Source: Selaginella tamariscina (lineage: Eukaryota; Streptophyta; Lycopodiopsida; Selaginellales; Selaginellaceae). From it: a stretch of DNA of 64,000 nt. The translations under genes were made by a program, and so were the position numbers. The notes under the pieces are model-generated. The model searched no databases and was not told where the DNA came from. It saw only the letters and a program-made list of their open reading frames with translations. Positions 3,380-64,000 of this stretch are shown here, in pieces. The stretch's first letter is position 1. Each line of letters opens with the position of its first letter. The stretch covers positions 1,593,422 through 1,657,421 of the forward strand of contig PUQB01000020.1 of the NCBI GenBank assembly GCA_003024785.1. The letters run 5' to 3'.

Positions 3380-4600
3380 TGGGGCTTCAGTCATAATAGG
3401 CAAAAAAAGTGGTGTTGTCACAAGATTAAAGAAAGTTAATCTTTTTTAACTTTTGTTGATTGTGTGGCACAAAAAACAATTTGTGTGTTAGAAATGCAGC
3501 AAAGGATAAAGTTTGCAAAGAAACTATGCAATAGATTAATGAGTTAATAAATGGAATTACTAAATTTTTTGTACACACCAGTTAACATATGATACATTTG
3601 AATGAAATACAAACTGAATTTTCAAAGCCACACAGAAGATTGAAGAATATTCAAAGTACATGTTAGCTTAGTTGACACATAAACATTACTAAATTATGCA
3701 ATAATTTTGAGTTTGTTATGGAAATTTTTAAATCAGAAAAGTTTGAGCTTTATGAAAACTACATCAGTTTTCAATGATTTATATTTTTATACTTTCTCCA
3801 AATATTTTAAGACGTATCAGTGAGCTAAATATGGTGTTCAAGAAAAATCTCAATGATACACCCTCAGTGATGAATTAGTGAATTTCAGAAGATTAGTTTA
3901 ATTTGAATGCTATATTGATAATAAAGAATACTCCATTATACATGAATATGAACCTCCAGACGGGCATCTAGCAGCGTTAAGAGAAATTATCGAATGTAAA
4001 TTCTATAGAGGTTTAGATATGCAAATGAGTTTGGATAGAAAGAAAGATTTAGTATACCTTTCCAATTTTAAATGGATTTGCTCACGTGGTTATTCATAGT
4101 TTGAAGAATATGTTTAAAGACACTAGCATGTTCAATAATTTCAAGATTTTTCTCCAGCTCACATGATTAGAAGTACAAAATAACTGAAGTAATTTAAAAT
4201 AGAGCTACAAGAGCTTATGATTTTTGATGGAGTTGACAAAGAAATTGAAGGTAATAATTTTTTAAAATTATTATTAAAGAGAAGTTGTTAAATGAGTTTA
4301 GGAGGTTAGATTCAAGCAAGCACAGAGTGGATGGGCAAAGTTTTCTTTTAACAAAAGTCTACGAGGACAAATATCATGAGCTGGTTAAACTTAGCCTTGT
4401 ACGAGTTATAACACAACAAAATGTGAGTGTTATAACACGAGTGTGGCTTCAGCAAGTTGGCACATATTAAGGACAAATATAGGTGCTTAAGAAGCTGTCG
4501 ATGCATTAACGAGAGTGGCTGTTCATGGTCCAGGCATGAAGACATTGATAGCTTTGATTTTAAATCTTGTATCAGATTACATGCATATATTTGCATAGGT
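3380..4600 (+). pseudogene. hAT-family transposase remnant (copy 1)
   Basis: Fragments in several frames resemble hAT transposases of the ZNF862-like type. Near 3,410-3,480 is a GVVTRLKK...DCVA(H)K block, as in the RNase H-like core. Near 4,100-4,260 are NMFKDTSMFNNFKIF and KELQELMxFxGVDKEI blocks. At 4,300-4,560 is the C-terminal dimerisation region, including SWHILRTN in place of the usual Cys-Glu-Arg-Gly block, and DALTRVAVHGPGMK. Stops and frameshifts are frequent, so this is a fossil. The same remnant follows the second upstream unit at 52,663-53,345, where the middle part reads more openly. Confidence 0.55.
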
Positions 4601-4786
4601 AATTCCTATTTAACTTCTTATTTTAAGTTTAAGTTTAATCAGTAGCAAAAAATGAAGGCTGATCTTTTGGTTTACAGAAACTTCGCTGGCAGTTGCCAAT
4701 TCTTATGAATCGAGGAAATTTTTGTATATTGAATTGAAAATTTCTTCTAACCCTGTATATATGTGACGAAAAGTCACATGTAACGA

Positions 4787-4794
4787 CAAAATTA
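4787..4794. other. Unoccupied insertion site of the MULE-like element
   Basis: The sequence cgacaaaattat is shared with 53,635-53,646, and agacttccacatatt follows a few bases later as it does at 61,425 onwards. In copy 2 the 7.8-kb transposon separates these two flanks, and CAAAATTA is duplicated. In copy 1 the flanks are joined by about 15 extra bases (cttccgtagtctacg), which could be an excision footprint or an independent indel. Confidence 0.6.
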
Positions 4795-5049
4795 TCTTCC
4801 GTAGTCTACGAGACTTCCACATATTAATTAATCAGGTTACAAAACTTAATTATATTAATTAACCTTCAATATTTTTCTTTTAAACCAGTTTAAAGATTAT
4901 ATAGAAAACACTTTTCCTGTTTTAACAAAATAATGTTTATTAAAAACCATTTTTATATTAATTAGTTCTCCCGGAATAGCAGAAAAGTAGGGACTAACTA
5001 ATTGTGTGTTCTGCAAGTCAAGCAAGTTCCATATATATAAACGGCCCCA

Positions 5050-11674
<6,625 letters not shown>

Positions 11675-27777: not shown

Positions 27778-29675
27778 ATGTCCGAAAGTCTTATGCTAGT
27801 TCAAGCTGATGTGTGTGGGTGTACAACCTGTGCAGGGTGTTTCCAACTTAACATTGGGAATATTCCGAGCATATTCTCCGAGTGTTGAAACTAGGGTTCA
27901 ATACGATGAGCAAAGAAAGCAACCGGAGCCTGAGGCAGAGAGGGCTGTCGCAGAGGCTCAAAATGAGGAGATGGATGAAGCTGATCCAGGTCGACCCCCT
28001 AGGGCTAGGCAGCGACCTGGTTGGCGTGAAATAATGATGGATGCCCTAAACGAACTTCGAGGGGATGTCTTGGGTTGAATGACAGAATCGATAATGTTGC
28101 CGTTCGGATTCCAACGAATACGGCAGTGCCAGACGTTCCGCAACCAGACACACGGAAAAAGAAGAAGAAGCATGACTCAGAGTCAGGTTCCTCTGAATCA
28201 GATTCTTCGACGGAAGTAGTGGTGGAGGTCCCAGTAAATTCAAACCGGTAAAGCCTTCGAATTTCATGGGTTCAAAGGATTACAAGGTTTTGGATGACTG
28301 GTTGTATGATATGGAAAGCTATTTCGAGGCTGCTTCCGTGAGAAAGACAGAAAAGGTTGCATGTGCCAAGCAGTTTCTTAAAGAAGAAGCTAAGACTTGG
28401 TGGCGAATTGTTGAAGGTGAACGTGGATACCGAAACAGCTGGAAGCACATGAAAAAGGAGATCAAAAAGCAGTATATGCCGGATGATCTCGGTTTGCGAT
28501 TGCGTGCTGACCTGGCACTTTGTCAACAGGGAGTTCGGGGAAGTCCTATGGACCACGTTTATCGATTCGAAAGTGTACGGCGATTGGTGCCAAATATGAG
28601 CGATGATGAAGCTCGAAGTTGCTTCATGGCTAGCTTGAATGAGAAAACGCGAAGGGAGATCTTAAGGTACAAGCCCACAAGCTATCGGGAATGTCAAGAG
28701 GCAGCTCAAAAGGTTGCTTATGGCATGTCGTTAGAAGACTTGTACAAAGGGGAGGAAGCAAAACCTAAACCAAGGAGGTTTCCTCCAAAGTCTGGGTTCA
28801 GAAGGTTTGATAGGCGACCAGATCAATCGCCATCAATTCGAAGTGCAAGTCCCTTTGTTGGCAGTTCCAAGTTTTCGGACACATCAAGACCCACCGGATT
28901 TCGGAAACCATTGGCGTTACCACCTCCTCAGCAGAAAGGATCGGCTCCAAAGTCTGCTCCCCCGCGTTCCGCAGGCGGGGTCGTGAAATGTTATAATTGT
29001 AACAAGCCTGGTCATTTTGCTAAAGAGTGTCCGGCACCCTCACAACAATCAGGACATTTCAAGGCGATGGTAGAAGAGGAAGTTGCTGAACCAGAAACGC
29101 TTGAAGATCCGGAAGATGAGTCAGAAGAGGTAATGTTGTGCCAGACACAACCTGCCTTATTCGCTATTCAAGACAAAACTGACCCTTTGCTATATTTGAC
29201 AGGAAGGATACGAGGGGACCGAGTCCGAATGATGATCGATACTGGAGCAACATACAACTTCATATCGACTAGTCTAGCTCGTCGATTGAATTTGGATGTA
29301 ATAAAGATGTGTGAAATAAAGATCAATTTTGGCAAAGGTTCTCAAAATACTAATAATATAGCAAGGGCAGTTCCTGTCCAAATCAAAGATTGGAAGGCTA
29401 AGCTAGACTTAGTTGTCTTGAATATGACGGGGTTTGACTTTGTTTTGGGTATGGAATGGTTCCATAAACATGTAATCGAAATGAGGGGTTCCGGAGATAA
29501 TCGAATCACGCTTGCAGCAGATAAAGAAGCCATTAGAAAACACGCTCAAATGGAAACGCTAACTGATAAGGATTGGAATCCTATGTTCCTTACCTTAACT
29601 CAGTTGCGTAAGCAGTTAGACATCGGGAACGTGTGTTTCTTGCAATGGTTTTGGATACTGGTGAAGTCAAAATAG
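27778..29675 (+). CDS. Element A gag and aspartic protease (frameshifted)
   Basis: The first ATG after the leader is at 27,778. Gag can be followed through frame changes near 27,812, 28,075 and 28,235, then an open stretch of 469 codons from 28,266. That stretch contains the Retrotrans_gag core (LDDWLYDMESYF, KTWWRIVEGERGY, about 28,290-28,650), a basic Pro/Ser-rich linker and a CCHC zinc knuckle CYNCNKPGHFAKEC (about 28,988-29,030) that binds RNA. The retropepsin motif MIDTGATYNFIS follows at about 29,230-29,268. Near 29,540 a one-base shift diverts the frame to an early stop at 29,675. Confidence 0.85.
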
Positions 29676-29732
29676 GAGATGGTCAAGAATCTGTTCCGAA
29701 CCTATTTTGGAAGTCTTGAACATGTTTAGGAT

Positions 29733-31060
29733 GTGTTACCAGAAGATTTGCCGCCTGAGTTACCTCCACGTCGAGCTGTGGACCACAGAATAGAGGTTTT
29801 GCCAGGTTCGTCTCCACCGGCAAGAGCCCCATATCGGTTGAATCCTCAAGAGTTAGTAGAATTGAAGAGACAGCTGACAGAATTGATGGTCGAGGACACA
29901 TTCGACCTAGTCGATCCATATGGTGCACCTATCTTGTTGTAATGAAAAAGGATGGTACGATGCGAATGTGTGTGGACTATCGAGCGCTGAACGCGATAAC
30001 TATCAAAAATAAGTATCCTCTTCCACGAGTGGACGACTTATTTGATAGGCTATCAAAAGCAAAGTATTTTTCAAGAATAGACTTGAGATCGGGGTACCAT
30101 CAGATTCGGGTAGCAGAGAATGACATTGAGAAGACCGCTTTTCGAACGCGTTATGGATCATTTGAGTTTCTAGTCTTGCCATTCGGGTTGTGCAATGCTC
30201 CAGCAACTTTTTGCACAATGATGGATGATGTGTTTAGAGACTATCTAGACGAGTTCGTGGTGGTATATTGATGACATTCTGATTTTCAGTTCGACAATTG
30301 GAACATGTGGAACACTTAGAAAAAGTGTTTCAGAGGTTGAGAGAGAACCAGTTGTATGCTAAAGAAAGCAAGTGCGCATTTGGTCAAACCAAGATAGATT
30401 TCTTGGGACACTTGATCTCAGGTGGGGAGGTTGCCATGGACCCAAAGAAAATTCAAGCTATTACTGAGTGGATGACTTAAAAGACGTGCATGAAGTTAGA
30501 TCATTTCTTGGTCTGACAGGGTATTACCGAAGATTCATAAAGGGTTACTCGGAAATAGCGGCCCCATTGACAGATCTTACGAAAAAACATTCCATGGCAT
30601 TGGACTCCAGAGTGCCAACGTGCGTTCGTCAAACTCAAAGAGGCTATCTCTTCTGAGCCAGTTTTGCAGTTGCCCATCTTTGAAGATCCCTTTGAAGTAG
30701 AATGTGACGCTTCCGACTTTGCAATTGGTGGTGTATTGCAACAGAAAGGACATCCAGTGTCCTTTTTCTCGAAGAAGTTAGATGCCGCGCAAACTCGATG
30801 GCCTACTCACGAAAAGGAGATGTATGCTATTGTTGCTTCCTTGGAGTATTGGCGTCATTATCTTCCAAGTCATGGCACTGTGGTTTGGACAATAGTGTAA
30901 CTCTAAGGTATTTTGAAACGCAGCCGAAGCTATCGCCGAAGTATGCTAGATGGCAGCAGAAGTTGGCACGATTTCAGCCTGAAATCAAACATAAGCGGGA
31001 AAGGACAATGTGGTAGCTGATGCACTCAGTAGAAAGGGTCATCTTCGATTATGTCAGCAC
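29733..31060 (+). CDS. Element A reverse transcriptase and RNase H (frameshifted)
   Basis: Typical Ty3/gypsy [31 protein letters not shown] and [15 protein letters not shown] at 29,960-30,210. The YIDD catalytic box near 30,262 is split by a shift. FLGHLISG follows at about 30,400 and [16 protein letters not shown] near 30,500. RNase H begins with [14 protein letters not shown] near 30,700, with [19 protein letters not shown] at about 30,810-30,870. At least five frame changes (near 29,890, 29,940, 30,270, 30,477 and 30,585) prevent a single product as written. Confidence 0.85.
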
Positions 31061-31199
31061 CCGTGTCAACTTTGGTGGATGAATTTGTGACGGCGTATCC
31101 TCAGGACAAGTTTGCTAAGGAGGCTTTGAGCCTGGTGGCAAAGAGGAAACAAGTTCATCATTACGAAGAGATGGTAATATTCCAGCAGGAATAGAAAGT

Positions 31200-32364
31200 C
31201 GAATGGATGCACTCAAACAGGCGCATTTTGAGTACGAGATGGAGTTCTTTATTATAAAGAAAAGAGACTCTATGTTCCAGAAGGGACATGGAGGGAGAGG
31301 CTGTTAAGAGAGCATCACGACGTTCCTTTGGCAGGACATGGTGGAAGGCATAAGACGTTGGCTTTGTTGAACAGGGATTCTATTGGCCGGGTATGATAGA
31401 TGATGTTGCCAAGTATGTCAAGACATGCCCCACATGTCAACAAGTAAAGAGCCGATCGCAAAAACGAGCTGGGAAGTTGCAGTGTATACCGATTCCAGAG
31501 CGGCCATTTCAAAGTGTTACTTTGGACTTTATCATGGGATTGCCAAAATCTTGTGGTTTTAATGCGCTCATGGTGGTAGTCGATCGTTTTCAAAGGTTGC
31601 TCATTTCATTCCAACTGTAGAGACAGTGAATGCAATTCAAGCAGCAAAGTTGTTCTTCCACGAAGTCATAAGAGTGCGCGGACTACCGGAAACATGATCT
31701 CAGATCGGGATCCTCGTTTACGGGAAGTTTTGGGGACATTGTTTAAGCAGTTTGGTACGATGCTCAAGTTCAGTACAGCTTACCATCCGCAAACTGATGG
31801 TCAACGGAGAGGGTGAACCGACAAGTCGAGGACTATCTCAGATGCTATGTTCAAGGTGATCAACTTGATTGGGCTGAACACTTAGATATGGCTGAGATAT
31901 GTTACAATAACTCGACACACACTGCAATCGGATGTAGCCCGATGGAAGTGTTAACTGGGAATAAGGGTGGTATTCCTCAGAGTATGGTGTTACCGAAAGA
32001 CGATAGCAATCGAGTTCCATCTGTAGCAGAGTTCACGGGACAATTGTATCGAACATGGGAAGCTGCTCGTCAAGCGATGGCTGCAGCACAGGAAAGGTAT
32101 CGTCAGCAGTACGATAAACATCGGCGGGATGTAGAGTATCAGGTTGGGGATATGGTATTGTTGAGTACCAAAAACCTGAAGGTTCCAACGACTCTTTCGA
32201 GGAAGTTTCTATCGCACTACATAGGTCCATACAAGGTGGTGAAGCAAGTAGGGAAAGTGGCTTATGAGTTAGATCTTCCTCCAGAGTTGGGAACAATACA
32301 CAATGTGTTTCATGTCAATTTACTCGAGCCATTCCACAAGGATGAGAAACATCCGCAGATATGA
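31200..32364 (+). CDS. Element A integrase (frameshifted)
   Basis: The zinc-binding HHCC domain shows REHHDV/HGG...KTCPTCQQVK at 31,308-31,445. The DDE core shows VTLDFIMGLPKS and MVVVDRF at 31,518-31,590, then ISDRDPR near 31,700. The open stretch 31,813-32,364 carries the C-terminal part, with AEICYNNSTHTAIGCSP and the GPYKVVKQVGKVAYELDLP (GPY/F) module, followed by HNVFHVNLLEPF. Shifts occur near 31,370, 31,595 and 31,735. Confidence 0.85.
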
Positions 32365-48319: not shown

Positions 48320-49860
48320 TCACGGCAGGATGGTTTTCCAGCTCATTCTCATCCACATCAATGAACTGAGCTCCAAGCTCTCTCTTAGGAGGATTATCTG
48401 AGGTAGAAGGCTGATTCTTAGGACAATTTGGAGAAATATGTCCTTTCTCTCCACATGTATAACAAGTAAGATTAATAGAATTCCTTCCTTGTACTTGTCT
48501 TTATCTATAGTTATTTTGATCTCCATAACTCTCTTTTCTTGGATATCTTTCTGGTCCTCTGTAGGACGTCTCCTTCCTTCCCATATTAGGCTTATATGGT
48601 GGAGCATATCTAGTTTGATTCCCCTCATATAGCCTATCATCTCCTCCTGTATAAGGAACATTCCTTTTTTTACCAAAAGGATTCCTGTTTCTTCCTTCTT
48701 CCCAACTCCCAGGCTGTTCCTCATAATAGAGCTTTCTATTCCGAGATGGGAATGTGGTAAAGGTGGTTGTCTCACAGAAAACGGCCTGTTATACCAGCCT
48801 TCCTTTCTTCCTTCCTTTCTCCTTTCTTTTTCCACACGTGCCACATTTTGATTAATAAAATACTTACAGTCTTTTGCCGAATGTCCTTCTTTATCACATA
48901 TTTAACATTTTAGCAACTGTAATCTACACTCATCCTTAGTATGTCCAGGATTTTTACACTTGGCACACCATACTTTGGCATCTAATTCCTTATACACAGG
49001 ATTACCTTTCAAGGACTTAACTAGCTGTAAACATTCTCTCATTAGCCTTATAATCACGAACTTTGATAGGTTCATCCTCATCATCTGAACTATCCTCCTT
49101 TCTCCTTGAGGATTTTATCTTTCCTTCTGCTATGTTTTCTATTTGTCTCCTCTTCTTCTCATAATCTTTAAGATGCTTTACAAGATCTTTCCTGTCTACT
49201 TCCTCAATTGTCATTACATAATGCCTATATGGCTTCTGCAATCCTTGCTTATACCATTGAAGCAAAGCTTCTTCCTTAACATATAGTGAGCATTTCTTTT
49301 CATGCTTTTTAAAACGGTGTGTATATTCCTCTAGAGTTTCAGTTTTCCCTTGTAAGATATTTCTGAGCTTCTCTAAATGCTCTTCAGGCAACTCTTTCTT
49401 TTTAAAGTATTCTTTAAAAGCTTCTGTAACTTTCTCATAATCTTCTCTCACATCCTTCTCCAACTCATAATACCAATCAGATGCATTTCCTTTTAATGTG
49501 TGAGGAAATATAAGCAACTTATCTGCATTGCTTACTTTATACAACTTCACAACTTCCTCAAACTGCAATAAATGTCTTTTAGGATTTTCCTTCTTTCCTG
49601 CGAAAAATATTGGGAACATCAATGTGCCTCCCAACATTTCGGGGAAAAGTGTCATATTAGACATTCTCGGTGGGTTTTCTCTACCACCTTCCTCCTCACC
49701 AAGAGAGGAATTTCCAGGAGATACTCCTCCTGGTCTAATAGGAAATCCTGTTCTCTGAGGAGTTCCTTCTAACTTCTCTTCTCCTGTAGTTTGATAGTCA
49801 CCGTATTGTATATCTTCCACACCTTTAGCAGCACTTTCTCCTATCTGATCAATGAGTTTT
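48320..49860 (-). CDS. Element C gag with zinc knuckles
   Basis: The open minus-strand stretch 49,820-49,017 holds a typical Retrotrans_gag domain (LLIFPHTLKGNASDWYYEL, YKVSNADKL, KNILQGKTETLEEYTHRFKKH). It is followed by an acidic, lysine-rich segment. Downstream come a knuckle CAKCKNPGHTKDEC near 48,970-48,930, a second CxxC...GHSAKDC with an in-frame stop near 48,905-48,870, and a third CYTCGEKGHISPNC near 48,465-48,420. Gag is the best preserved gene of element C. Confidence 0.85.
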
Positions 49861-51503: not shown

Positions 51504-52662
51504 TTGCGAGTGCCTCATGAATGAGCTCTTGCTAACGAGCTTAAAATGTTCAACCCTTGAATCCCAAGGAAAAGTCTCCCTTTAACTAAATGTGACAAAT
51601 AGCACATCCAGTTAGAAGACCTAACCTCCCTTGAGTGAATGGCCAAGGTTTAGCACCCTAATGTGAGCACATGCACACCCTGCTTGCCCTCAACATTAAG
51701 CCCATGAGATAACCCCAAAGGGCGTGCTTCATGTGTTGTACCATGTGCAATCTAGTCTAGTGTCAATCTTTATATGACATTGTTTTCTAAGATGTGAGCT
51801 ATCATGCCATAGCCCCTTAATAAAAACCATGGTCTAAGTCAAAATAGTTAATCCATGGATTCAAGAGTTGCACCCAATGTCATGAATATGGCTCTCAAAA
51901 TGCCAACTCTAGAACCCCTTTGTGATCCCTCAGGAACTCGATAAGAAAAACTTATGAGCCAAAATCTCACACCCACAGTTGGACAAGGACACAAATATGC
52001 CCTACTTAGTTATGAGTGCTACTCTTAACTTAACATGAAGGAGGAGATTGGAAACAAGCCTCAACCTTTGACCCTTGAAATATGCAGTTCAATAAGACCT
52101 CTCATGCATGCATTCGCCAATGTTAAGGGTAAATTACCCCTACCCCTATTGTTTGGAAGTTGAGGTGACACAATAAAGGGTTGTGCCTTAACGATACAAG
52201 TTAGAGTTTGCATTAGTAAAAGAATAACGAGCTTAATCATAAACTCATAAACTCTCACTACATATACTCTACCTTATTTATGTGATGGAGCCCCCACCCC
52301 ACCCCTATTTTCCTATTTGTGCTAGCATAGAATGCTAGCCCCACTCCTACCCCTAAACCCTACCCAAGGGGAGGGGATTTAGGGTGTGGGTTAGGACAAC
52401 CCTAGGGTTAGGTTAACCCTAGGGGTGTTCTTAACCTCATTTGCACTAACCAAAAAACTTAATTAAAATGTCAAAATTGGGGAAACATTTTTTAAAAGAT
52501 AAGTTCTACCTTCGTTTAGAGTTTTTAATAAACTCGACTGAACCATCACTAGATACTCAAGTGGACCTGTTTCCTATTACATTTAGGGTCCATAAACATA
52601 GTACAATAAATAACAACAGTCAATGTGCAAAGTAAAAAGGAGTCTTAATAAAAATTATGACA
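51504..52662 (-). repeat. 5' LTR of element F, second part
   Basis: 51,504-51,840 matches 14,043-14,345. 51,880-52,662 is an antisense, diverged copy of the gypsy LTR (compare 14,350-15,183 and 41,018-42,010) and ends ATTATGACA. At 52,663 the sequence rejoins the upstream unit of ABCC at the position equivalent to 3,927. Confidence 0.6.
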
Positions 52663-53345
52663 TTGATAACAAAGGATATCCCATCATACTTGAATATGAA
52701 CCTCCAAATGGGCATCTAGCAACATTGAGAGAAGCTATCAAGGGTAAAATTCTATAGAGGCTTAGGGATGCATAGGAGCTTAGATAGAAAAGAAGGATTA
52801 GATATAGCTCTCCAATTTCAAATAGATTTTGCTCAAGTGGTTGTGCAGAACAAGTTTGAAGACACCAACATGCTTAATAATTTTAAGATTTTTTCTCCAG
52901 TTCACATGTTTAGAAATATGAAATTGTTAAAAAAATTTGGAAAAAAAGAGTTACAAGAGCTTATGAATTTCCATGGAGTTGACAAAGAGATTAAAAGTAA
53001 ATAATTTCCTAAAATCATTATTAAAGAGAAGTTGGATGAGTTCAAAAGGTTTAAGATTCAAGCAAGCCCAAAGTGAATGGCCAAAGCTTTTGTAGATACC
53101 ACGAGCATCAACAAAAGTTTGTAAGGAGAACGAATATCTTCAGCCAGTTAAACTTAACACTATTAAACTTATACAAAGTTATAGCACAACAATATGTAAG
53201 CGTGACTTCAGCAAGTTGGCACATATTAAGGACAAATACAGTTATTGATGCATTAATGAGAGTCACATAAGAGATTGACAACTTTGATTTTGAAGCTTGT
53301 ATCAACATTTGAAACAAACAATGCAAATTACATGCATATCTTTAC
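52663..53345 (+). pseudogene. hAT-family transposase remnant (copy 2)
   Basis: Duplicate of 3,927-4,600. The stretch 52,768-53,004 reads openly: QFQIDFAQVVVQNKFEDTNM, LNNFKIFSPVHMF and KELQELMNFHGVDKEIKSK. This resembles the region before the dimerisation domain in ZNF862-like hAT transposases. The C-terminal part (WMAKAFVD, SWHILRTN, DALMRVT) is shifted and stopped. The 5' part is missing because of element F. Confidence 0.6.
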
Positions 53346-53637
53346 ATAGGTAAATTCTTATTCAATTTCTTATTTAATTTTAATCAGTATGAAAAATGAA
53401 GGCTGATTTGTTGTTTACAGAAACTTTGCTGGCAATTCTTATGAATTTCCTAAAAAGTTTACATTATCAAGAAATTTTGCATATTGAATAAAAAAACTTT
53501 TTCTAGCTCTGTATACGATGTGACGAAGGCTGAGGTTTTTGTTTACATGGCAATTCTTATGAATTTCGAAGGAAATTTTACATATTGAATAAAAAACTAA
53601 CTCTGTATATGACGCGACGAAAAGTCACATGTAACGA

Positions 53638-53645
53638 CAAAATTA
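53638..53645. other. Target-site duplication, left (CAAAATTA)
   Basis: CAAAATTA here and at 61,415-61,422 flank the transposon. Eight to eleven bases is the usual duplication length for MULEs. The unoccupied locus at 4,787 has one copy. Confidence 0.65.
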
Positions 53646-53697
53646 TAGAGGATTAGCAAAAAACCGGGCTTCGTACAACGGGCTTTTCGCATATTCC

Positions 53698-53748
53698 CGA
53701 ATATCCAGGAATATTCTGTCAAATAAACGGGAATATTCTAGAATATTC
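53698..53748. repeat. Left subterminal GAATATTC cluster
   Basis: Perfect GAATATTC palindromes at 53,709, 53,731 and 53,741, preceded by a near copy CCGAATATCC. The spacing is 22 then 10 bp going inward. Likely transposase-binding sites, by analogy with subterminal repeats of other plant DNA transposons. Confidence 0.8.
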
Positions 53749-53846
53749 TGCCAAGTAGATTATCTTTAACTTTCAATATAAAATGCCGACCAACAAGTGA
53801 AAAACGCTAATTATTTGCCGACTAGACTTTACTATACCGACTAAAC

Positions 53847-56800
53847 TTAAAAGGTCGCAGGTTCGACATTGCGCTTGCAATCAACCAATAACCGATGCAC
53901 TTCTGCTGGAGTAAGGGTCCGCCTCTGTAAGAAGTAAGTAATCGTTGGGTCTAATCCAAGAACATGAGTGTACACAAAATACATGTGTTGGCAGGGGCTC
54001 CAGTTCTTGGCTTTCTGAAAAGTTGCACAAGTGCATGACGGAACAGTAGAAATTGTTACCTTAGCAGATTGCATGCCTGCAGAGACAATGAAGGCCTCAG
54101 TCTTCCCTCTTTGAACCACCTCCACGTTGTTGATCCGACCTTGAAGAATCTTTGCCTGGTTGTAATGTTTCTCATGTTCCTTGGACATTCTTGTTGGTGT
54201 TCGCACACTCCGTCCATGGTATGTTGGTACTCTATGTGCTCCCTCTCCTCTTGGTGGTGATGGTGTTCGATCCATTCGGCTACTACTGTCGTACCATTTC
54301 TTCAAATCCCTCCAACTTGAATCCTGCTTTCAGAAGAGCTTCAACCTCATTTGCATTCAAGTTTGTTCCTTTTTGAACTGGCCAAACCTCTGGAACTTCT
54401 GGAATACTCTCAGGAGGAATCCCTGCATATGGTCGTCTGAAGCAACAAGAATCGCGTGGGCAGAACCATAGCATCTGATGAGTGAACTCAATGTTCCCAA
54501 ATGCATTTGTATATTGCCGTCTACCGTGAAATCCTGGTGCCGGTACACGATGTGGATATCCTATGGGTCTGCCACACTTGCTGTTACCGTCCTGAGTGAG
54601 ACCTAGACATTTCACCTGACTTGCCTCCCCAATGCGTCTGATGGCCCACTGAGTCATCAACGTCTCTCTTTCAGTGACATTGACATCTTGAAACTTGAGT
54701 TTTTTCCTGCGTGCATTTGGGATGACTTGTTCTGCATATTGTGTGTCATGTCTATGTGTACGAAGTGCATCAATCCCATGGTCCCCAGTTGACGGTTGAC
54801 GAACGGTTCGAACACGAACATTTGTTGTAGAGGCAAACTCTGGACTTGCAAGATGCTCTTCATCACTAACAAGATTTGCAAAAGTTGTTGGAGACACTGA
54901 TTTTCCCGCTGAAAGTTTCTGCTGTGCACGTTTCAGAAGAGTTTCCATGGAAGGACCTGTGCCTGAATATCTCCCTTCAAATGATGCCTTGACCTTTGCA
55001 CTTTGGAAAACAGCATCTGTTAAATCTAACATTGTTGCCTCCAACAAAGGAACACGCTTCGTCAGCCTTGCTCTTCGTGCTCTTGCATGAACAACTTCGG
55101 AGTTGTTAGTGGTAGGCACATTCGCAACACCATCTTCTGTCAAGTCAATTATCTCTGTCATGGAAATATGATCTTCATGTCTTGCCCACCATGACAGCCA
55201 TGTTTGCAAAGCGCTAACGTTACTGGACCTGCCTTCCCAAAATGACTCCAACATTACTCGTCGTTCCAACTTATCTTGGTTGGTTAGTGCTGCAGGCCAT
55301 GAGCGTGCAAGGTTCATGTGCTCCTCCCTGTGTTCCTCAAGTATCCACTTCTTTGTAACTTGACGCACTGACTGCATGTAATGGAACAAACAACTCCTTT
55401 CTCTTCCTCTCATCTTTGACCCATTGTTGAAAACTTGACGCAATGCTAACCAAATTGCACCTGACTCATCTGACATGAACCCCGCAAAGTTCACATTATG
55501 AAGTCCTTGCTTGCTGCACACTTGAAGCATAGTGTTCAAAAATTTGATCACCGCCACACTATCCTCCCTGATCATGTCACCATAAGCAAGTGTCACCATC
55601 GACCTTAAACTACACAAACATAAGTGCATTATATTAGTAAGTATTTTAAAACATAGATATGTTAATACTTACAATGGATCATAGAGATGTATTCCCAGTG
55701 TACACCAATCATCAATACGATATGTGTGGTCTAGCACCACCCACTGCTGTTCGAGATCACCTCCAGATTGACACCTTCTAATGTAGTCTATTCCGGATCC
55801 TGGGCCGGCAACTGTCATTTTGAAGATTAAAGGCTGCTCTTCAGCTCCGTTGAGGTCCATTCCGGGTATGTGGATAACATGTATGAATGGGATTGATAGC
55901 TTCTTCTTTAACTGCAGAAGTCCTTCGTAACCTTCTTTGAAACGAGTGTCTCTTGTTCTAGCCTGAGATATCCATTCTCTTGTTCTACATGGAAAGGTTA
56001 AGCATCTCCAAAAGGAAATAATAATTTTTTTGCTTACCGGCGGTGATTTGTGAGTGGTAGTAGATCTGACAGAACCTTGTCGTATGATACATCTCCAGAA
56101 TCTGTTACCAGTTTTTCCAAAATTATATTGCGTGCTGCTTGAAACTCTATGACACGTTGATTAGTTCTTGGGGTTGCAGCGACTGCTTTGTTGATTGTCT
56201 CCTTAGCTCTGTCTTTAGAGACCATGGATTCGGGTGGTCTACGTGGGTGTTGATGTTCTCCAAGATGGATGAAAAGCCTCGTGCATGTGATATCATCTGG
56301 AATTATGTAATATGCAACAACGGAGCATGTCTGCACTAGAAGGGGCTCATTGTTGCAATGCACACACTTCATTCCAAGCACTCTACCATCTGAAGATAAC
56401 TGGACTTTATCAATGGTGCCCTTAAATTGGCAGTCATTTGCTTTCTTACTGAAGCTGATGAACGGACATGTTTCCTTTACGCATTTCATGTGGCCAATAC
56501 ATGAACTGCGACTAACACGAGCTGGAACATTCCAATGTGTTGTGCAGCGTTGAGTCCAGTAATCACACCCATCCTTCCTATTCATCCCTTTGTACTTGTC
56601 CTTCATTGTTTCGTGTGCTGGCAACTCGTAAATCACATTTCCGTTGCAATCTTCTGGGACCTCAGCAACTTGCTGAATCGATGACGAGACCACCAGTTGC
56701 TTCCCAATCCTACATCTCTGACTATTGCGAAGTATTGTTACCATAGAATTGTCCCGATCTGTTGTCTCCAACCGGAATAGCGGTCCTTTGGAAGGAAGAA

Positions 56801-57017
56801 GTGTGTAATACACAAAACTGCTAGCTCTTGCCCCTTCTGGTTCTACCTCAACATTCGCAGCATCTCCACCAACAACAGACATCAAATGCAGCACTTTAAA
56901 AGATTGCCAAGGTGGAATGTCAAATGCAGACCTGAGATCTGTTTCAAAGACAAATGCAATACCATCTTCATCTGCAGGGAAGTCCTTGTCAACACCATTG
57001 TAGCTGATTCTTGCCAT
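53847..57017 (-). CDS. MULE-like transposase with SWIM zinc finger
   Basis: Exons on the minus strand: 57,017-56,039, 55,985-55,673 and 55,609-53,847; junction phases are consistent. Start chosen at MARISYNGVD (57,017); an upstream ATG at 57,059 is less plant-typical. The N-terminal part has a Cys/His cluster (CIGHMKC...C, CVHC...HLGEHQH), resembling the zinc-binding domain before the catalytic core in MULEs. The DDE-type core shows VVLDHTYRIDD (near 55,729), FMSDESGAIWLALRQVF (near 55,470) and RSCLFHYMQSVR, the C-x-x-H block typical of MULEs; I could not fix the third acidic residue. After an unusual Cys-rich insertion (CLGLTQDGNSKCGRPI) comes a C-terminal SWIM finger, CTC...CQH (near 54,035-53,985). 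A one-base shift near 54,295 joins two overlapping open frames. It should cut and insert the element. Confidence 0.75.
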
Positions 57018-57510
57018 GTAGCAAAAATGGAACAAACAAAAGTTAAAATTCAAAGACAATGAACATATTACACACGATGGTTAATGTGTTTGTTAGTCGT
57101 GAGGCAATCATTTCATTGACAAATATTAAAAATAATATTAATTGCGTGCGTCTGGGTAGAAGAGTGAAATTAATTTACTGCGTCTGGGTAGGTTTTTTGT
57201 AAATTAAAAAGTTTTACTATGTACAAGTGGCGATCATGCATGCAATATGTTTACAGAAATTAGGTTGGTTTTTAATTGATTTAGGGCGGCTAGGGTTTTG
57301 CAATTAGGGCGGCTAGGGCAGCTAGGGCGGCTAGGTTTTCGTGGAGCAGGGGCTCATTTGGGGGCATAGCGTGGAGCAAGTGTGGCTCCAGGGATTAATC
57401 ACAATAGGCTTCCATTGAGGGGGTGAGTATTTTCTGATTTCTTCATGATCTGCTCATGATCTCTTCATGATCTGTTCATCTTTTTACATCTCTTCACAGT
57501 TGCAAGAAAT

Positions 57511-57532
57511 CCGAGTCGGCCTGCCGACTCGG
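57511..57532. promoter_or_regulatory. Palindrome 1 of the AGTCGGC array
   Basis: A perfect 22-bp inverted repeat with the core GAGTCGGC-CT-GCCGACTC extended by CC/GG outside. Confidence 0.9.
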
Positions 57533-57550
57533 ACTGACTTCGTTGTCCGT

Positions 57551-57572
57551 CCCAGTCGGCAGGCCGACTGGG
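57551..57572. promoter_or_regulatory. Palindrome 2 of the AGTCGGC array
   Basis: A perfect 22-bp inverted repeat, core CAGTCGGC-AG-GCCGACTG, starting 40 bp after palindrome 1. Confidence 0.9.
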
Positions 57573-57574
57573 GT

Positions 57575-57686
57575 GGACTGTTCCAGATCCAGTCAACATT
57601 TTGACCGGGGTTGACTGTTCCAGCCCCAGTCAGCATTTTGACTAGGGTTGACTGTTCTAGTCCCACCTAGCATTTTGACTGGGCCT
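57575..57686. repeat. 37-bp tandem repeat x 3 between palindromes
   Basis: Three units beginning gactgttc (57,576, 57,613 and 57,650), each with CAGTCARCATTTTGAC-like sequence, a half-palindrome-like CAGTC plus a TTTTGAC block. Unit length is 37 bp. Confidence 0.85.
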
Positions 57687-57730
57687 CGCTTCGTTCCCAG
57701 TCCCAGACTGGGCCTCCCTTTGTTGCCAGG

Positions 57731-57752
57731 CCCAGTCGGCATGCCGACTGGG
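57731..57752. promoter_or_regulatory. Palindrome 3 of the AGTCGGC array
   Basis: A perfect 22-bp inverted repeat, core CAGTCGGC-AT-GCCGACTG, 180 bp after palindrome 2. Confidence 0.9.
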
Positions 57753-57772
57753 ACTTACAGCAACTGCTCTCT

Positions 57773-57790
57773 CAGTCGGCACGCCGACTG
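57773..57790. promoter_or_regulatory. Palindrome 4 of the AGTCGGC array
   Basis: A perfect 18-bp inverted repeat CAGTCGGC-AC-GCCGACTG. Its core starts 40 bp after the core of palindrome 3 and about 85 bp before the ParB-methyltransferase ATG. Confidence 0.9.
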
Positions 57791-57874
57791 TGAGGGCTAG
57801 TATGTTTTTTTATTTTTATTAAACATCTTTGAACATTTATTACAGTTTTTTGTTAAACCTTATTGCTTTTGTAG

Positions 57875-60800
57875 ATGCGCTCTTCACAACGTTTACAAGA
57901 AAAGAAGATGAAGGAGCCTACTGAGAGAGAAGCAGAAGCTAGAGCTGCAATTCAGAGAGGGCGTCGGGTCGTGGGAGAGGAAGTAGGAAGCTGGCTGTGG
58001 TTCAGGAACAAGGACCTTCAAGTGATGCTCCAGTTGAACAGGCAAGCCAGCAGGACTGGTCAGGAGAGCAAGAGGATGTAGTTCAACCCCAACAAGAACA
58101 ATCAGACTTTGTTGAAGAAGTTGAGGATGATGTCTTACCACAGGAGACACAGGAGCAGACAGAAGGCACACAAGCCTCATGCGCAGTGACTTTGTCGAGT
58201 GACGAAGAGGATGAACCCAAGAACAAGAAGAGACGACGCAAAGCTGCTGGAGATTCAGAGGCTGCTAAGAAGAAGAAGAAGGGTAAAGCAGAAGTGCCAG
58301 ATAATGAGGAAGTTTACAACATTGCAGCCAGCATGCATTCGGAGAGTGCAGTGCGTCTTCTCGCGAAGATCACAATCCGAGAATATGGAGAGGCACCGGA
58401 TGTCCCTATTTGCCGAATTCTGGGAAATGAACAGGTGCGGAGAGTCAATCCAGCGGATCTGGAATCTTTGACTAGGAGTTTCAAGAAGGCAGTTGGTTAT
58501 TTGCGCAACACCACTCAGTTCATCCTTCAAGTTGGGGACCCCATGACAGATGCAGATCTGGCAGCATTGAGAAGCGATGAAGCGATGTATGCTCAGCATT
58601 TGGCTTTTGAGGAGGAGCTTCAGTCTGACATGTTCCGGCAATGGGCACCAATGCTTTCGATGAAGAAGTTCATCTGTTGGGATGGTAATCACAGGCTAAA
58701 GGTGCTTCAGAAGCTGTACATAGAAGACACGGAAGATAAGAATCAGTGGGCAGTGAGAGTGCGTTCAGGCTTCATCCGTGCTGGGGTCATGGATAATCTT
58801 CAGCTTGTGACAATGTTTCAGCAAATTAATAGGTAAACATAGTGACCTCTAGATCATAGGATTAACTAACTTCGAGATTTTCAAATATGCAGTTCCTCCG
58901 CAACGGCAGTGCAAACCACACTGCCACATCTTCTGCTATCTGTGAAGACATGTTGCACCAGTGAGGAGGGCACAGCGAAGATCTTGGCCAGGCTCAGTGA
59001 CAAGGAACGAGATGACATAAGAAAGTGGAAGGAAAGCGCAACTGGACAACAAGCTTGGCATCCACTTCCGAATTTGATCTGTGCAAAGATTTTTTTTGAG
59101 GTACCACGTCTCACACTTATATTACTTAGTTGATTACGTCTGTGAATTACAGAGTGAGATTGAGGATGATCTTGAGAAGGCTGCAAGGGCATCCAAAGGC
59201 AACAAATACCAGGAGCAACAACAGGTCTACATTAAGCATGACAAGCGCATGATGAAGATCTTAGCCATCATCGATCCTGCATTGGGTGAAGAGTGGTTCG
59301 ACAAGGTGACCCAAATCACATGGAAACAATGCAGATGGATGGGGTTGGAAAAGCTGTACGCGCTTTCAAGGGCGAGAATTCCAAACGAGACGAGAATCAT
59401 GTACTTCAATAAACTGGTACGTCTCGAACTGAAGAGAGAGCAAGAGACACTTGGATTGCCGGGTGTTCAGGATAAGGAGTGGATAAGGTGGTTTACTATC
59501 GATTTGTATTGGCGAGCATCAGAGAGGAGGCAGTCAGATTCTCACGGGACTCATCGAGGATGGCGAGTGGACAGGCCGGTTACAGATTTCACGACTTGGT
59601 ACGATGAAGTGCGGGTAAAATGCAAGAACGTGATGTTCCAGCCATTCCATGAGTGTGTGAAGTTCACTTACTCCATAGAGCCGAAAGAGTTCCTCGAACA
59701 CGAAGAGACAGCAAGAAGGATGATTTGGAGGTAAGGATGATCTTCTTGACATGTTACATTCTGACACTACTATATGTTCATTACAGGTATGTCGCAGCGA
59801 GAAAGGTGCCTCACACACAGACTATGGTATTCTGGTCAGATTACATGGAAGCACCACACATGTGGTCGAAGACAAGATCTGGCCTGACAGAGTTCGAACG
59901 TGTAAACGTACCGTTCTGGCTTGATTATCCACCTGGGCAACCACCAACATGGGAGAAGGATCTCTACAATGAACACTCAAAAGATCTCCCATGCATCTCA
60001 TGGGATCCGGCAGAGGTCGACTTCATTAAGAAGACAAAGGCCAAGGCAAAGCGGCGTCAGCCTGTGCAGCAGTCAAAGAAGAACTCAGATACAGTAGCTG
60101 GCACCTCCACTACTCGCGATCCAGCTGCCTTATTCAATTTATCTGAAGTGCTACCATCGCAGGGAACCATGGACATCAAGGATGACTTGGTCACATTCGT
60201 CCCTTCACTTGCTACAACTCGAGGTGATAATTTCTTGGCGATTGATGACATCGAGGAGATGCAACAGGCCGTGCTCACGGATGAGAAGGAAGAGGAGGTT
60301 CCTGACGCTAGACTGGTTCCTTATAGAAAAGTTCAGACACAGGTGGCCAGGTACCATACAGCTGACAGCCAGACTCGCTACCAGCATATTGCGGGAGAAT
60401 ATGGTTTCAACTTGGTGATCTTCGACCTTCCAAATGGGACCTTGCCAGGAAATACAACGAGTGATACGCCATACCTCTACCTTGATCCAGTGAAGTTCGA
60501 TGAAGCACTCCAGTTTGCAGGTATGCATATGGCTGCAAATGGTTGGTTGGTTGTGTTTGCTGCAGCAAACACCTGGGATCAAGTTGTCCGAGCTGCAAGT
60601 GTGGTGGACCTTCAACTTGCTGCAACGTACTACATCTACAGAGGGCGTGGTTGGGGCTACCGCAACAAGATGAAGGTACTTTTTTCTTTATTCATGAAGT
60701 TCATTAATGATTTTTGATGTTTTAACAGGAGAGCATCCTGCTCCTTCTTGTCTTCCAAGATGCATCTAGAGGATTGCGCGATAATCCCTGCGTTTGTCAT

Positions 60801-61190
60801 CAACAATTCTTGTTGATAATCCTGAGCGGTTCCAAGAACCATGGTAGGCATTTCATTTCAACAATTTAAGTATTTACCATTATCTTCACATGCAGGATGG
60901 ACTACCAACCGAAGAGCACTCGATTGATGCAGCTCGTGATAGAACGACTCACCCGGCCAGGTGATCTTATCTGGGATATAGGCAGTGGTACGGGGTCCTC
61001 AATGCTTGCAGCTATCGAGCTGGGGAGAAACATTGTTGGGACTGAGAAGAACCCTGAGCTCGGGAGAATTGCTATGAACAGGATTAAAGAGAACATCCAG
61101 CCAGAGGAAATCCCAACCCAAGCAATAGCGACGTCAAGTAGGACTGGTGGTTCACGAATTGCAGCATTGCTCAATCGTAAGAAGAAGTGA
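57875..61190 (+). CDS. ParB-like domain / beta-class DNA methyltransferase protein
   Basis: Exons by GT/AG: 57,875-58,834, 58,894-59,100, 59,152-59,731, 59,787-60,675, 60,730-about 60,840 and 60,897-61,190. The N-terminus is basic, then acidic/Gln-rich with Lys-rich stretches. A ParB/Srx-like domain follows: VRRVNPADLESLTRSFKKA near 58,437 and WDGNHRLKVLQKL at 58,678-58,716, matching the D-G-N/H-H-R box of ParB-like proteins. The large middle part (58,900-60,300) is unassigned and ends in a Lys/Arg-rich, NLS-like segment (KKTKAKAKRR). The C-terminal Rossmann part has NLVIFDLPNG (60,409-60,438) where N4/N6 methyltransferases have D/S-P-P-Y/W, then GDLIWDIGSGTGSS (about 60,960-61,001) and RNIVGTEKNPELGRIAMNRI. 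Motif IV before motif I is the beta-class order (CcrM/DpnA-like). Shifts lie in about 57,950-57,990 and twice in exon 5 (near 60,795 and 60,820). It likely methylates DNA in the nucleus if intact; activity is unproven given DLPN. Confidence 0.72.
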
Positions 61191-61220
61191 CAAGTGTTGA
61201 ATTGTACTCTTTGGTGTTGA

Positions 61221-61226
61221 AATAAA
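61221..61226 (+). terminator. Polyadenylation signal of the ParB-methyltransferase gene
   Basis: AATAAA 31 bp after the stop codon, in AT-rich sequence. Confidence 0.55.
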
Positions 61227-61321
61227 ACTTTAATAATACAGTATAAACATGGCTATGATTTAAATATTTTTTGTTGTTAATTGCCGACTGAGCCAAAATC
61301 CTAAATTCTAAGAATATTTAG

Positions 61322-61362
61322 GAATATTCTAAGAATATTCTGGTAGATTCTTTAGAATATTC
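61322..61362. repeat. Right subterminal GAATATTC cluster
   Basis: Perfect GAATATTC palindromes at 61,322, 61,333 and 61,355, that is 22 then 11 bp going inward, a mirror image of the left cluster. They are followed outside by a small hairpin ccgggtccaagcccgg (61,362-61,377). Confidence 0.8.
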
Positions 61363-61414
61363 CGGGTCCAAGCCCGGAAGCCCAGAAGCCCATAGCCCTC
61401 TTTTCGTCGGGACT

Positions 61415-61422
61415 CAAAATTA
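61415..61422. other. Target-site duplication, right (CAAAATTA)
   Basis: Second copy of the 8-bp direct repeat flanking the transposon. Sequence homologous to 4,810 onwards (agacttccacatattaatt) resumes just after it. Confidence 0.65.
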
Positions 61423-61544
61423 CAAGACTTCCACATATTAATTAATCAGGTTATAAAACTTAATTATATATAATTAACCTTCAAAATTAAATAATGTTTA
61501 TTAAAACCATTTTTATACTCCCAAAAAATTAGAAAAGGAAAGGG

Positions 61545-62229
61545 ATGAGTAACATAAACGGCCAGGATTTACAAGCGCAAATGTTCCTCTCAGTGGGTAT
61601 GATCAAATTTCCATTCTTTATTACATATTCCTCATTTTCACTGATTTATTCACTATCTTCACACCCACGCACACACATACACACACATCAAAAACTATAT
61701 ATATATATAGGTATGTATGTATGTTTTTGCAGTGGCCCAGAACACATTTTCCTGGATTGAATGTTCCTCAATTCTTATAATTGGACTTGATGTTTTGTTT
61801 GTATTCGCTTACTTAGTAAGTAAGAAGGAGAGCAATAGCAATTCCAGTGTTAAGTACTCGAGTTTATATATAACTCTGCAACTCGGATCATTCTATCTTG
61901 TGGTGGTAAACCTTGGTTCTGCAATCTGGCTTGCGTATGATCAATGGCAAAGCAGGAACTTGCAGAATGTTCTCATATTCTCCGAGCTTGTCACTCAAGG
62001 TTTGACATGGTTAATTTCATTAATTACTCTCCGCAAACAATTTTTACCAATTCTGAGAGTATGGTGGATACTTTCATTTTTCACAATCTTCATTCAGCCT
62101 GTAATATTCATGGTGGTCTTCAAGACTCCTCCACAGGTAAATTTCAATCAATTAATTTATATATAAATTTATCAGGTACATTGAGTTATCATAATATATT
62201 TTATAACTCTAGTTTGAATGTTTAATATA

Positions 62230-62279
<50 letters not shown>

Positions 62280-64000
62280 GAGAGAGAGAGAGATTGCATT
62301 ATAGCAGAATTATTAACCATGAGATTACAGAAGTGTTTAGTGGGATTAGTGGCTTTGGCTTCGGTTCCGGCGAATATTCTACTGTTGTGGGCTTCAAGGA
62401 CAGGAAAGATGCACGAAGACGGCCTTGAAGAGCCCCTACTAAATGGTGGAGTCCGTACAAACGACGTCACTCCATACAGTACGGCGGGAATATGCAGCGT
62501 CCTTGTGTTTTCTTGGCTAAATCCCCTACTTGCAACAGGTGCAAAACGACGTCTCGAGGTATAATATACGTATATATATAATACATCTTTAAAAATACAC
62601 ACATGCATGTATAATACGTACGTACGTATCTTTTCATGTTGTTATTATACAACTAGCATATTGTGTAAATCCTCTCTCTCTATATATATGCTATGTTGAC
62701 ACGATATTTTCATTTCTGATCTCAGACATCGTATATAAGTATATTCTTATATTCAGTATATGCTTTTACGTGAACTGACAACGACTCCAGGACGAAAAAC
62801 ATTATATTATACACAATATATTGACTGATTAACTTTTTACTTACTTTATTATATATGCAATGGCATATTTATACTAATATATAAATGTAATAGCCTGAGG
62901 ACCTGCCCAGTTAGCAGAAGCACACCGTGCTTACGCAGCATACAGCAAATTACAAGAGGAATGGGAGAAGTCAATGGGGGTCAGCAACAGGTCAAGGGCA
63001 GTCAACACGGGAGGACGCTCCTTAATGAGAACTCTTATCAAGTGTTTCTGGAAGGAGGCTGCCGTAGTTGGAGTTCTCGTGGTTATAAACTCCGTGTCTC
63101 AATACGTAGGACCATATTTAATCGACGACTTTGTAACGTATTTGAGGTAATTAGTATATACTTAATTAATAACTCAGTGGTGTAAGGAGGTTCCGTTATG
63201 AAGGTGCGATTCTGGTTACTACTTTTCTTGGGACAAAGATAGCGGAGAATTTTGCTTTCCGGCAATGGATTTTCTTGGTTCGTATACACACACGCGTGTG
63301 TGCGTGCGTAAATATATAACTATTATTATATTGTTTAGGTACAAGCTCTAGCAGTGAAGATAAGGGCAGCGTTAATAGCATGTGTATATCGAAAGGGTTT
63401 AAGGTTGTCCAACCAGTCGAGGCAAAGTTGCACTAGTGGAGAGATTGTTAATTACATGGCAGTGGACATTCAAAGGGTTTTAGACTTTACGTGGTTCATG
63501 CATGACATGTGGATGGTACCATTTCAGGTGCGTGCGTGTGTGTATATGACAATATGATACAAATACTAATATAATTTTAGTTAGTCTTAGCCTTGGCTAT
63601 ATTATATAGCAAAGTGGGGCTTGCAGCAATTGCCACAATAATTTCAACAATATTAACAGTGGCCTGTAATGCACCGCTTAGCAGGATGCTAGGTAATTAA
63701 GTTTAATTAAAGTTATTAACTTTATAAATTTTATTATCTATTAATTTGACAGAGAAATATCAAGATGAGATAATGCAAGCCAAAGATGTTCGTATGAGAG
63801 CAACCATAGAGTGTTTAAAAAGTATGAAGATATTAAAATTCCAAGCGTGGGAAAAAGCTTATTTAAAGAAGCTTGAGGATCTTCGAAATGCTGAATATAA
63901 ATCCTTAAAAAATTCATTCTATGCACGGGTACTTATGTGTGTGTGTGTTACACAAAGGGTGTACTAATGTATTTTACAGGCGGCAATAAATTTCCTATTC
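61545..64000 (+). CDS. ABCC (MRP-type) ABC transporter, copy 2, cut by window end
   Basis: Tandem duplicate of 5,050-7,600. Exons: 61,733-62,136, 62,331-62,558, 62,894-63,146, 63,178-63,277, 63,339-63,537, 63,581-63,692, 63,753-63,928 and 63,980-beyond 64,000. The first, second and sixth are open where copy 1 is shifted (TMD0: LVTQGLTWLISLITLRKQ and ILRVWWILSFF; SVSQYVGPYLI; LVLALAILYSKVG). Exon 4 (62,894) has its own one-base loss (DLPS then stop, where copy 1 reads DLPQLAEAH). TMD1 is complete as far as visible (SGEIVNYMAVDIQRVLDF); the ATP-binding domains lie outside the window. The start codon is unclear: ATG at 61,545 is out of phase with exon 2 under the donor I prefer. The MULE-like element ends 130 bp upstream. 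Confidence 0.85.
62232..62291. repeat. (TA)n(GA)n microsatellite in ABCC copy 2 intron 2
   Basis: Same site as 5,761-5,821 in copy 1, with a longer TA run and a shorter GA run. Confidence 0.9.

Follow-up and report, generated by a model that had tools for sequence, protein, structure and literature searches.

A Mutator-like transposon family of Selaginella tamariscina with a linked methyltransferase gene and a palindrome array

Why should a cut-and-paste transposon of a land plant carry, next to its transposase gene, a gene for a bacterial-type DNA methyltransferase? The question is raised by a stretch of 64,000 nucleotides of the Selaginella tamariscina genome (contig PUQB01000020.1, positions 1,593,422 to 1,657,421), which we call the window. 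Positions 53648-61415 of the window are a complete DNA transposon of 7768 bp with the termini GAG...CTC, and like ends were found in 18 other fetched copies. The original prediction, made from the sequence of the window, had placed two divergent genes between direct repeats, and both spliced genes are found there: a transposase gene and a second gene, hereafter the partner gene, that encodes a putative methyltransferase (Table 1). The insertion was also said to be missing from copy 1 of a duplicated segment, and copy 1 indeed has the unoccupied target site: 53548-53646 matches 4694-4795, and 61421-61488 matches 4807-4873. The two genes travel together, i.e. the methyltransferase gene is a regular part of the transposon.

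The host assembly (300.7 Mb in 1391 contigs) was searched with the whole element and with one exon of each gene. The DNA search, which ranked the candidates by likeness to the whole element and scored 19 of 1414, gave 19 near full-length copies including the one in the window, with main pieces of 96-100% identity. The transposase exon of 441 amino acids matched at least 95 places at 92-100% identity, most of them at 100% over 439 amino acids, and the matched part has no stop codon in 92 of the 95. For the methyltransferase exon of 296 amino acids there are at least 132 places (90-100% identity), 113 of them without a stop in the matched part. Both counts are lower bounds, 95 of 2337 and 132 of 1789 candidates having been scored. 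The element belongs to a large, recently amplified high-copy family. That the methyltransferase gene might be a single-copy gene of the host, an outcome that would have counted against the original prediction, is ruled out by its presence at these many places. A separate subfamily matching only residues 57-439 of the transposase exon was also considered and rejected, the three places in question (L059-L061) proving to be of the same family.

The linkage of the two genes was followed from both sides. Both are present in all 19 full copies (18 fetched whole, and the window). As that search was ranked by similarity to the entire element, the set is biased towards complete copies; the other 20 transposase places were picked by hand from the 95, and all 20 have the 3' part of the methyltransferase gene at the expected distance (L059-L061 are three of these, afterwards read whole). 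Seen from the transposase side the linkage is thus 39 out of 39 copies examined, and transposase-only relatives, which the original prediction had named as evidence to the contrary, are absent among these 39. From the methyltransferase side we took 20 places without a listed transposase partner; one ran off its contig, and the transposase is at the expected spot in 17 of the 19 that were read. The remaining two (L073 and L077, on contigs C749 and C576) have no transposase there. Pairing by distance alone among the matches listed gives lower figures (56 of 95 transposase places and 56 of 132 methyltransferase places), which come at least partly from the lists being incomplete, because many unpaired places turned out to be paired on reading.

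The class of the element was judged from its target site and from the transposase. The original prediction had described an 8-bp direct repeat; the actual duplication is 9 bp long (AAAATTATA and AAAATTACA), with one mismatch in the window copy. Twenty-two copies were read whole, and L060, in which the right end was not found, was left out of the count. In the 21 copies with both ends located the duplication is perfect (9/9) in 15, which represent 14 distinct sites. L028 (contig C90) and L032 (contig C486) have identical flanks and were counted as one site; the assembly therefore has a segmental duplication or two haplotypes at that place. The imperfect cases are L025 and the window (8/9), L016 (7/9), L059 (6/9), and L023 and L026 (3/9). 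The readings as a hAT or a Zisupton/KDZ element, which were built on 8 bp, were rejected because the family shows a 9-bp duplication. Beside the empty target site, copy 1 has about 14 extra bases (4797-4810) that are absent in copy 2; they may reflect an indel that arose in one or the other copy, or the footprint of an old excision.

The family majority reading gives a transposase of 1018 amino acids. The SWIM finger of the original prediction is in frame in this reading, with the pattern C.C...C.H, but the Pfam match is weak (E value 0.0029, 17.5 bits, below the curated cut-off of 19.6). The DDE-like core was recovered as a D...D...C..H pattern read by eye only, whereas neither the exons nor the joined transposase protein match the Pfam MULE domain. 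The terminal inverted repeat is an imperfect local match with a score of 66 against a maximum of 55 in 100 shuffles. According to the available text of a survey of Mutator-like elements (MULEs), their target site duplications are 8-11 bp and typically 9, a zinc finger such as SWIM is found, and terminal inverted repeats are absent in some groups (PMC6446971). The present element resembles those described there in its 9-bp duplication, weakly matching SWIM-like finger, D...D...C..H pattern read by eye and large transposase, and differs from them in its missing Pfam MULE match and weak inverted repeats. We take the element for a Mutator-type transposon on the grounds of its 9-bp duplication, the weak match to SWIM and the pattern seen by eye. 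The word methyltransferase is absent from the main text of the same survey, as far as that text was available (PMC6446971).

The partner gene has six exons, and the C-terminal half of the predicted methyltransferase is well supported. The last exon matches the Pfam family N6_N4_Mtase (PF01555) with an E value of 6.8e-10 and 39.7 bits (cut-off 26.7), over profile positions 165-220 of 221 and including motif I, which binds S-adenosylmethionine (SAM). It also matches the phage methyltransferase family phrog_67 (E 9.8e-13) and enzymes in PDB such as MboIIA (E 3.9e-4). With this profile match, the linkage in 39 of 39 copies and the multicopy state of the gene, the predicted cut-and-paste transposon with a bacterial-type methyltransferase gene has been substantiated. 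Introns of 52-60 bp, as in this gene, are unusually short for flowering plants. No protein homologue was found at E values up to 10 among 5.8 billion predicted proteins. Viral contigs gave 8 pattern matches, none of them confirmed, plasmids gave no match to the ParB-like exon, and phages matched the methyltransferase part, the only part used as the query. Twelve phage methyltransferase loci were fetched (L001-L007 and L034-L038); the ParB domain is absent by Pfam in seven of them, i.e. the seven on which Pfam was run, L037 having been inspected by eye and L034-L036 and L038 being unscanned. Phages as comparators for a ParB-methyltransferase protein were dropped.

The non-coding DNA of the element has a conspicuous organisation of its own. 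Tandem repeats of about 37-40 bp lie between the divergent start codons in all 19 copies, and each copy has 4-14 AGTCGGCnnGCCGACT cores and 1-11 perfect 22-bp palindromes CCCAGTCGGCATGCCGACTGGG. The window copy has the fewest of both, with four cores, one of which is a perfect 22-mer (57731-57752). In each of four copies inspected, the half-site CCGACT is found at two positions near the left end and at one near the right end. Three GAATATTC palindromes are found at each end in 14 of the 19 copies, with one fewer at one end in the other 5; in the window, six of the 18 GAATATTC fall in the two end stretches (about 144 bases). In its variable number and position the array would suit a site recognised by a protein that the element itself encodes.

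Seen directly are the transposon and its copies, the two linked genes, the palindrome array and the match of the partner to a methyltransferase profile; what the partner might do, i.e. its binding, the methylation and the effect of the latter, we infer from them. Our preferred reading, a possible one that we hold tentatively, is that of a Mutator-like family with two regular genes in which the partner binds the array and methylates the copies of the family. Copies that still encode the partner would make the protein, which would bind the palindrome array between the divergent genes and perhaps also the CCGACT half-sites near both ends. It would then place N6-methyladenine (6mA) or N4-methylcytosine (4mC) on family copies, and the mark might keep the shared promoter open against silencing by host cytosine methylation or, alternatively, might tell the transposase which DNA is its own. 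Such a system would be a methylation-based counterpart of the anti-silencing by VANC in the VANDAL elements of Arabidopsis. A more far-reaching version, which we regard as rather unlikely, is that the array is private, expandable and parS-like, that the ParB-like methyltransferase of a few intact master copies recognises it and marks all copies, intact or not, with 6mA or 4mC, that the mark shields them from silencing and allowed the burst to at least 130 copies, and that enzyme and array evolve together as a tag of self and non-self.

A number of observations weigh against the reading in which the partner marks the family, and they concern the protein, its target and its state of preservation. 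The consensus of methyltransferase motif IV is (D/N/S)PP(Y/F/W), and its aromatic residue usually stacks on the target base. In the window and in the family majority a motif IV-like DLPN precedes motif I, but it is without the usual final aromatic residue; in an alignment with seven phage enzymes it stands opposite DPPY in four and DPAY, SPPY and DLPY in one each. The motif order of the permuted methyltransferase in the original prediction thus holds. The ParB label fares less well. A DGNHR box is present, DGxHR being the ParB/Srx box, and the six frames of the window contain no other DG.HR; about 500 residues separate the box from motif IV; but no ParB profile or sequence match was obtained in Pfam, NCBIfam, PHROGs and PDB sequences, and the alignment score of the partner with E. 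coli YbdM was reached by 278 of 300 shuffles. A single-sequence AlphaFold model (mean pLDDT confidence 41) is uninformative on the fold. It may also be the transposase or a host factor that uses the palindromes.

As to preservation, both genes have broken frames in the window copy. Its transposase exon 3 is 2 bases short near 54290 in comparison with 16 of the 18 other copies, and its partner exon 1 has, together with that of L017, one base fewer near 57966 than the other 17 copies. Of the 22 copies, 10 have an open transposase frame as assembled, and none has the partner frame open over all 1015 amino acids; L023 comes closest, being open over 1011 of the 1015 with an in-frame gap (4 amino acids shorter). 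In the assembly most copies have a broken partner gene, which makes it less likely that each copy relies on its own partner in cis; and since copies with a broken partner have spread, the protein acts in trans, is unneeded for movement, or is decaying.

Most differences between the copies are short indels, mainly of 1-2 bases, which looks like assembly error, though this is not the whole story. Assembly error as the cause of all frame breaks was not sustained, because the partner half has more indels than the transposase half and certain lesions recur at several places. Groups of methyltransferase places have a stop in common or a match truncated at an identical point (residues 34-296 or 38-296); for example, at seven places residues 34-296 are matched at 97%, with a single TGA and an equal score, one of the seven showing small differences. 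It therefore seems that some broken partner genes were inherited and have moved with their transposon lineages. Substitutions across the 19 copies number 0-20 per 3.3 kb on the transposase side and 2-42 per 3.4 kb on the partner side. They are mostly higher in the partner half (42 against 10 in L027), with the reverse in L030 (3 against 20). The greater variation of the methyltransferase half hints at recombination, a different constraint, or base-dependent read errors.

A six-exon partner frame of 1015 amino acids is obtained in the majority reading when three columns are settled by the letter present. Gap columns were filled in this way even where few copies have the letter, and the filled letters are carried by 9, 6 and 13 of the 19 copies, respectively; the intact frame is therefore partly an assumption. 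Nonsynonymous and synonymous variants stand at 16:11 for the transposase, where a ratio of 2.62 is expected, and at 47:30 for the partner, where the expectation is 2.67; the sums per copy over 22 copies, in which shared variants are counted repeatedly, are 39:43 and 134:90. These ratios are a weak test; they are suggestive, and no more, of constraint, with more of it on the transposase.

The state of the frames bears on the alternative that the methyltransferase gene is a passenger, useless or once useful and now decaying, on a successful transposon. This would agree with the lack of any partner frame open at its exact length (L023 nearly excepted), with the lesions common to groups of places, with the indel-rich partner half and with a partner ratio of 47:30 that lies only mildly under the neutral expectation, and a recent burst would carry even a useless gene. 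It is opposed by the 1015-residue frame of the majority reading, with its three columns settled by the letter present, and by the 113 of 132 places that are free of stops in the matched 296-residue exon. Similar genes in algal transposons of other superfamilies, as far as they are described in the available text (PMC12477816), argue for repeated retention. We consider this alternative quite unlikely.

Control of transposition is an equally doubtful alternative. Here the partner would methylate the ends, at GAATATTC, and so time the binding of the transposase, or its ParB-like part would nick DNA and aid excision. Transposition might, for example, be confined to freshly replicated DNA, which is what Dam does for IS10 in bacteria. 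The clusters of GAATATTC at both ends and the tight linkage of the genes speak for such a role, as does a fusion of a ParB domain and an adenine methylase in Bacillus cereus, which is described as nicking DNA non-specifically (PMC5512222, available in part). Yet the largest and most variable array is central and not terminal, and copies with a broken partner have spread, although help in trans is possible. To our knowledge Mutator-like elements generally move without a partner protein of this kind, which also speaks against it. The least probable of these alternatives is that the partner regulates by binding DNA, or represses copy number, with a methyltransferase fold that still binds SAM but no longer methylates bases: the missing aromatic residue of motif IV, the intact motif I and the resemblance of palindromes between divergent genes to an auto-regulatory operator would suit it, but the phage beta-class enzyme L004 has DLPY at motif IV, so the second position of this motif tolerates change.

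The original prediction knew of no described system of this kind; one is in print. In the brown alga Ectocarpus, the 21.5-kb Sola-1 element Sola1-1_Ec32 has a ParB-methyltransferase gene of 1104 amino acids, and the available part of the same paper cites cases in green and red algal transposons and proposes self-modification (PMC12477816). Compared by description, the two systems are alike in having a large protein (1104 amino acids there, 1015 in the majority reading here) with ParB-like and N4C/N6A methyltransferase parts, and a methyltransferase gene on the strand opposite to the transposase; they differ in that the present element is a 7.8-kb Mutator-type one from a land plant, with 9-bp duplications and a palindrome array. 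The published algal cases, with their similar proteins, suggest that the methyltransferase is an older transposon gene, as against the capture of a prokaryote-derived gene by a plant transposon that the original prediction put forward.

Three further comparisons, again with descriptions available in part, are of interest. VANC is likewise the product of a second gene of a plant Mutator-like element (PMC5735166, PMC10398659), and VANDAL elements likewise have tandemly repeated short motifs in their non-coding DNA, which are the targets through which VANC acts (PMC5735166); VANC, however, causes loss of cytosine methylation and is not termed a methyltransferase in these descriptions (PMC5735166, PMC10398659). 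Fungal DNA transposons with TET/JBP dioxygenase genes also have a DNA-modifying enzyme of their own aboard, but theirs oxidise methylcytosine, in fungal hosts, whereas N-methylation is predicted here (PMC12730594). The bacterial Bce_0392 has a ParB-like part fused to a DNA methyltransferase, in contrast to the six-exon eukaryotic gene described here (PMC5512222). A land-plant case of a ParB-methyltransferase transposon was not among the literature matches listed. Transposon ParB-methyltransferase genes and the self-marking hypothesis are already known from algae; the Mutator-like carrier in a land plant, the tight linkage, the recent burst and the candidate binding array are new.

A young, high-copy element with its own methyltransferase gene and a candidate target array offers a clean test of the marks, and a programmed role of 6mA and 4mC in plant nuclei is disputed. 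If the marks were found, VANC and TET/JBP would be joined by another means with which transposons edit their own epigenetic state, and the part that binds the palindromes would become a candidate domain for targeting.

Table 1. Features of the transposon and of its target site (window coordinates)
Feature	Position	Strand	Basis or remark
Unoccupied target site, duplicate copy 1	4788..4796	.	Comparison of duplicated segments
Left target site duplication AAAATTATA	53639..53647	.	Flank comparison
Left terminal region: imperfect inverted repeat, GGGCTT repeats, three GAATATTC (53709, 53731, 53741)	53648..53748	.	
Transposase exon 3, presumed second Asp (FMSDESGAIW), CLFH motif, C-terminal SWIM	53847..55609	-	SWIM by Pfam, frame comparison
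Transposase exon 2, first Asp of presumed DDE core (VVLDHTYRID)	55673..55984	-	DDE by eye
Transposase exon 1	56038..57017	-	Open frame and splice sites
Intergenic array, four AGTCGGCnnGCCGACT cores (57514, 57554, 57734, 57774)	57511..57794	.	
Partner exon 1, ParB-like region	57875..58832	+	Open frame, frame comparison
DGNHR box ICWDGNHRLKVL	58681..58695	+	By eye; without profile support
Partner exon 2	58893..59100	+	Frame comparison
Partner exon 3	59153..59730	+	Frame comparison
Partner exon 4, putative methyltransferase N-half, motif IV-like DLPN at 60424-60435	59787..60675	+	
Partner exon 5	60729..60843	+	Frame comparison
Partner exon 6, methyltransferase motif I (SAM-binding, DIGSGTG) at 60975-60995	60896..61190	+	Pfam
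Right terminal region: three GAATATTC (61322, 61333, 61355), AAGCCC repeats	61322..61415	.	
Right target site duplication AAAATTACA	61416..61424	.	One mismatch to the left one; flank comparison

The duplicated segments 3914-7600 and 52662-64000 hold a gene and are about 89% alike over 2.6 kb downstream of the insertion, and the transposon sits within the duplicated segment, upstream of the second gene copy. By eye, the frames of this gene resemble the N-terminus of what we take to be a plant ABCC (MRP-type) transporter; the piece tested had no Pfam match. Beside it lies a TA-type dinucleotide palindrome (62225-62276) that is shared with 5761-5787. In the region 18500-52400 related pieces of retroelements are nested, some direct and some inverted, with Pfam matches of gag, protease and integrase type at 28197-32361 and of gag at 49020-49859.

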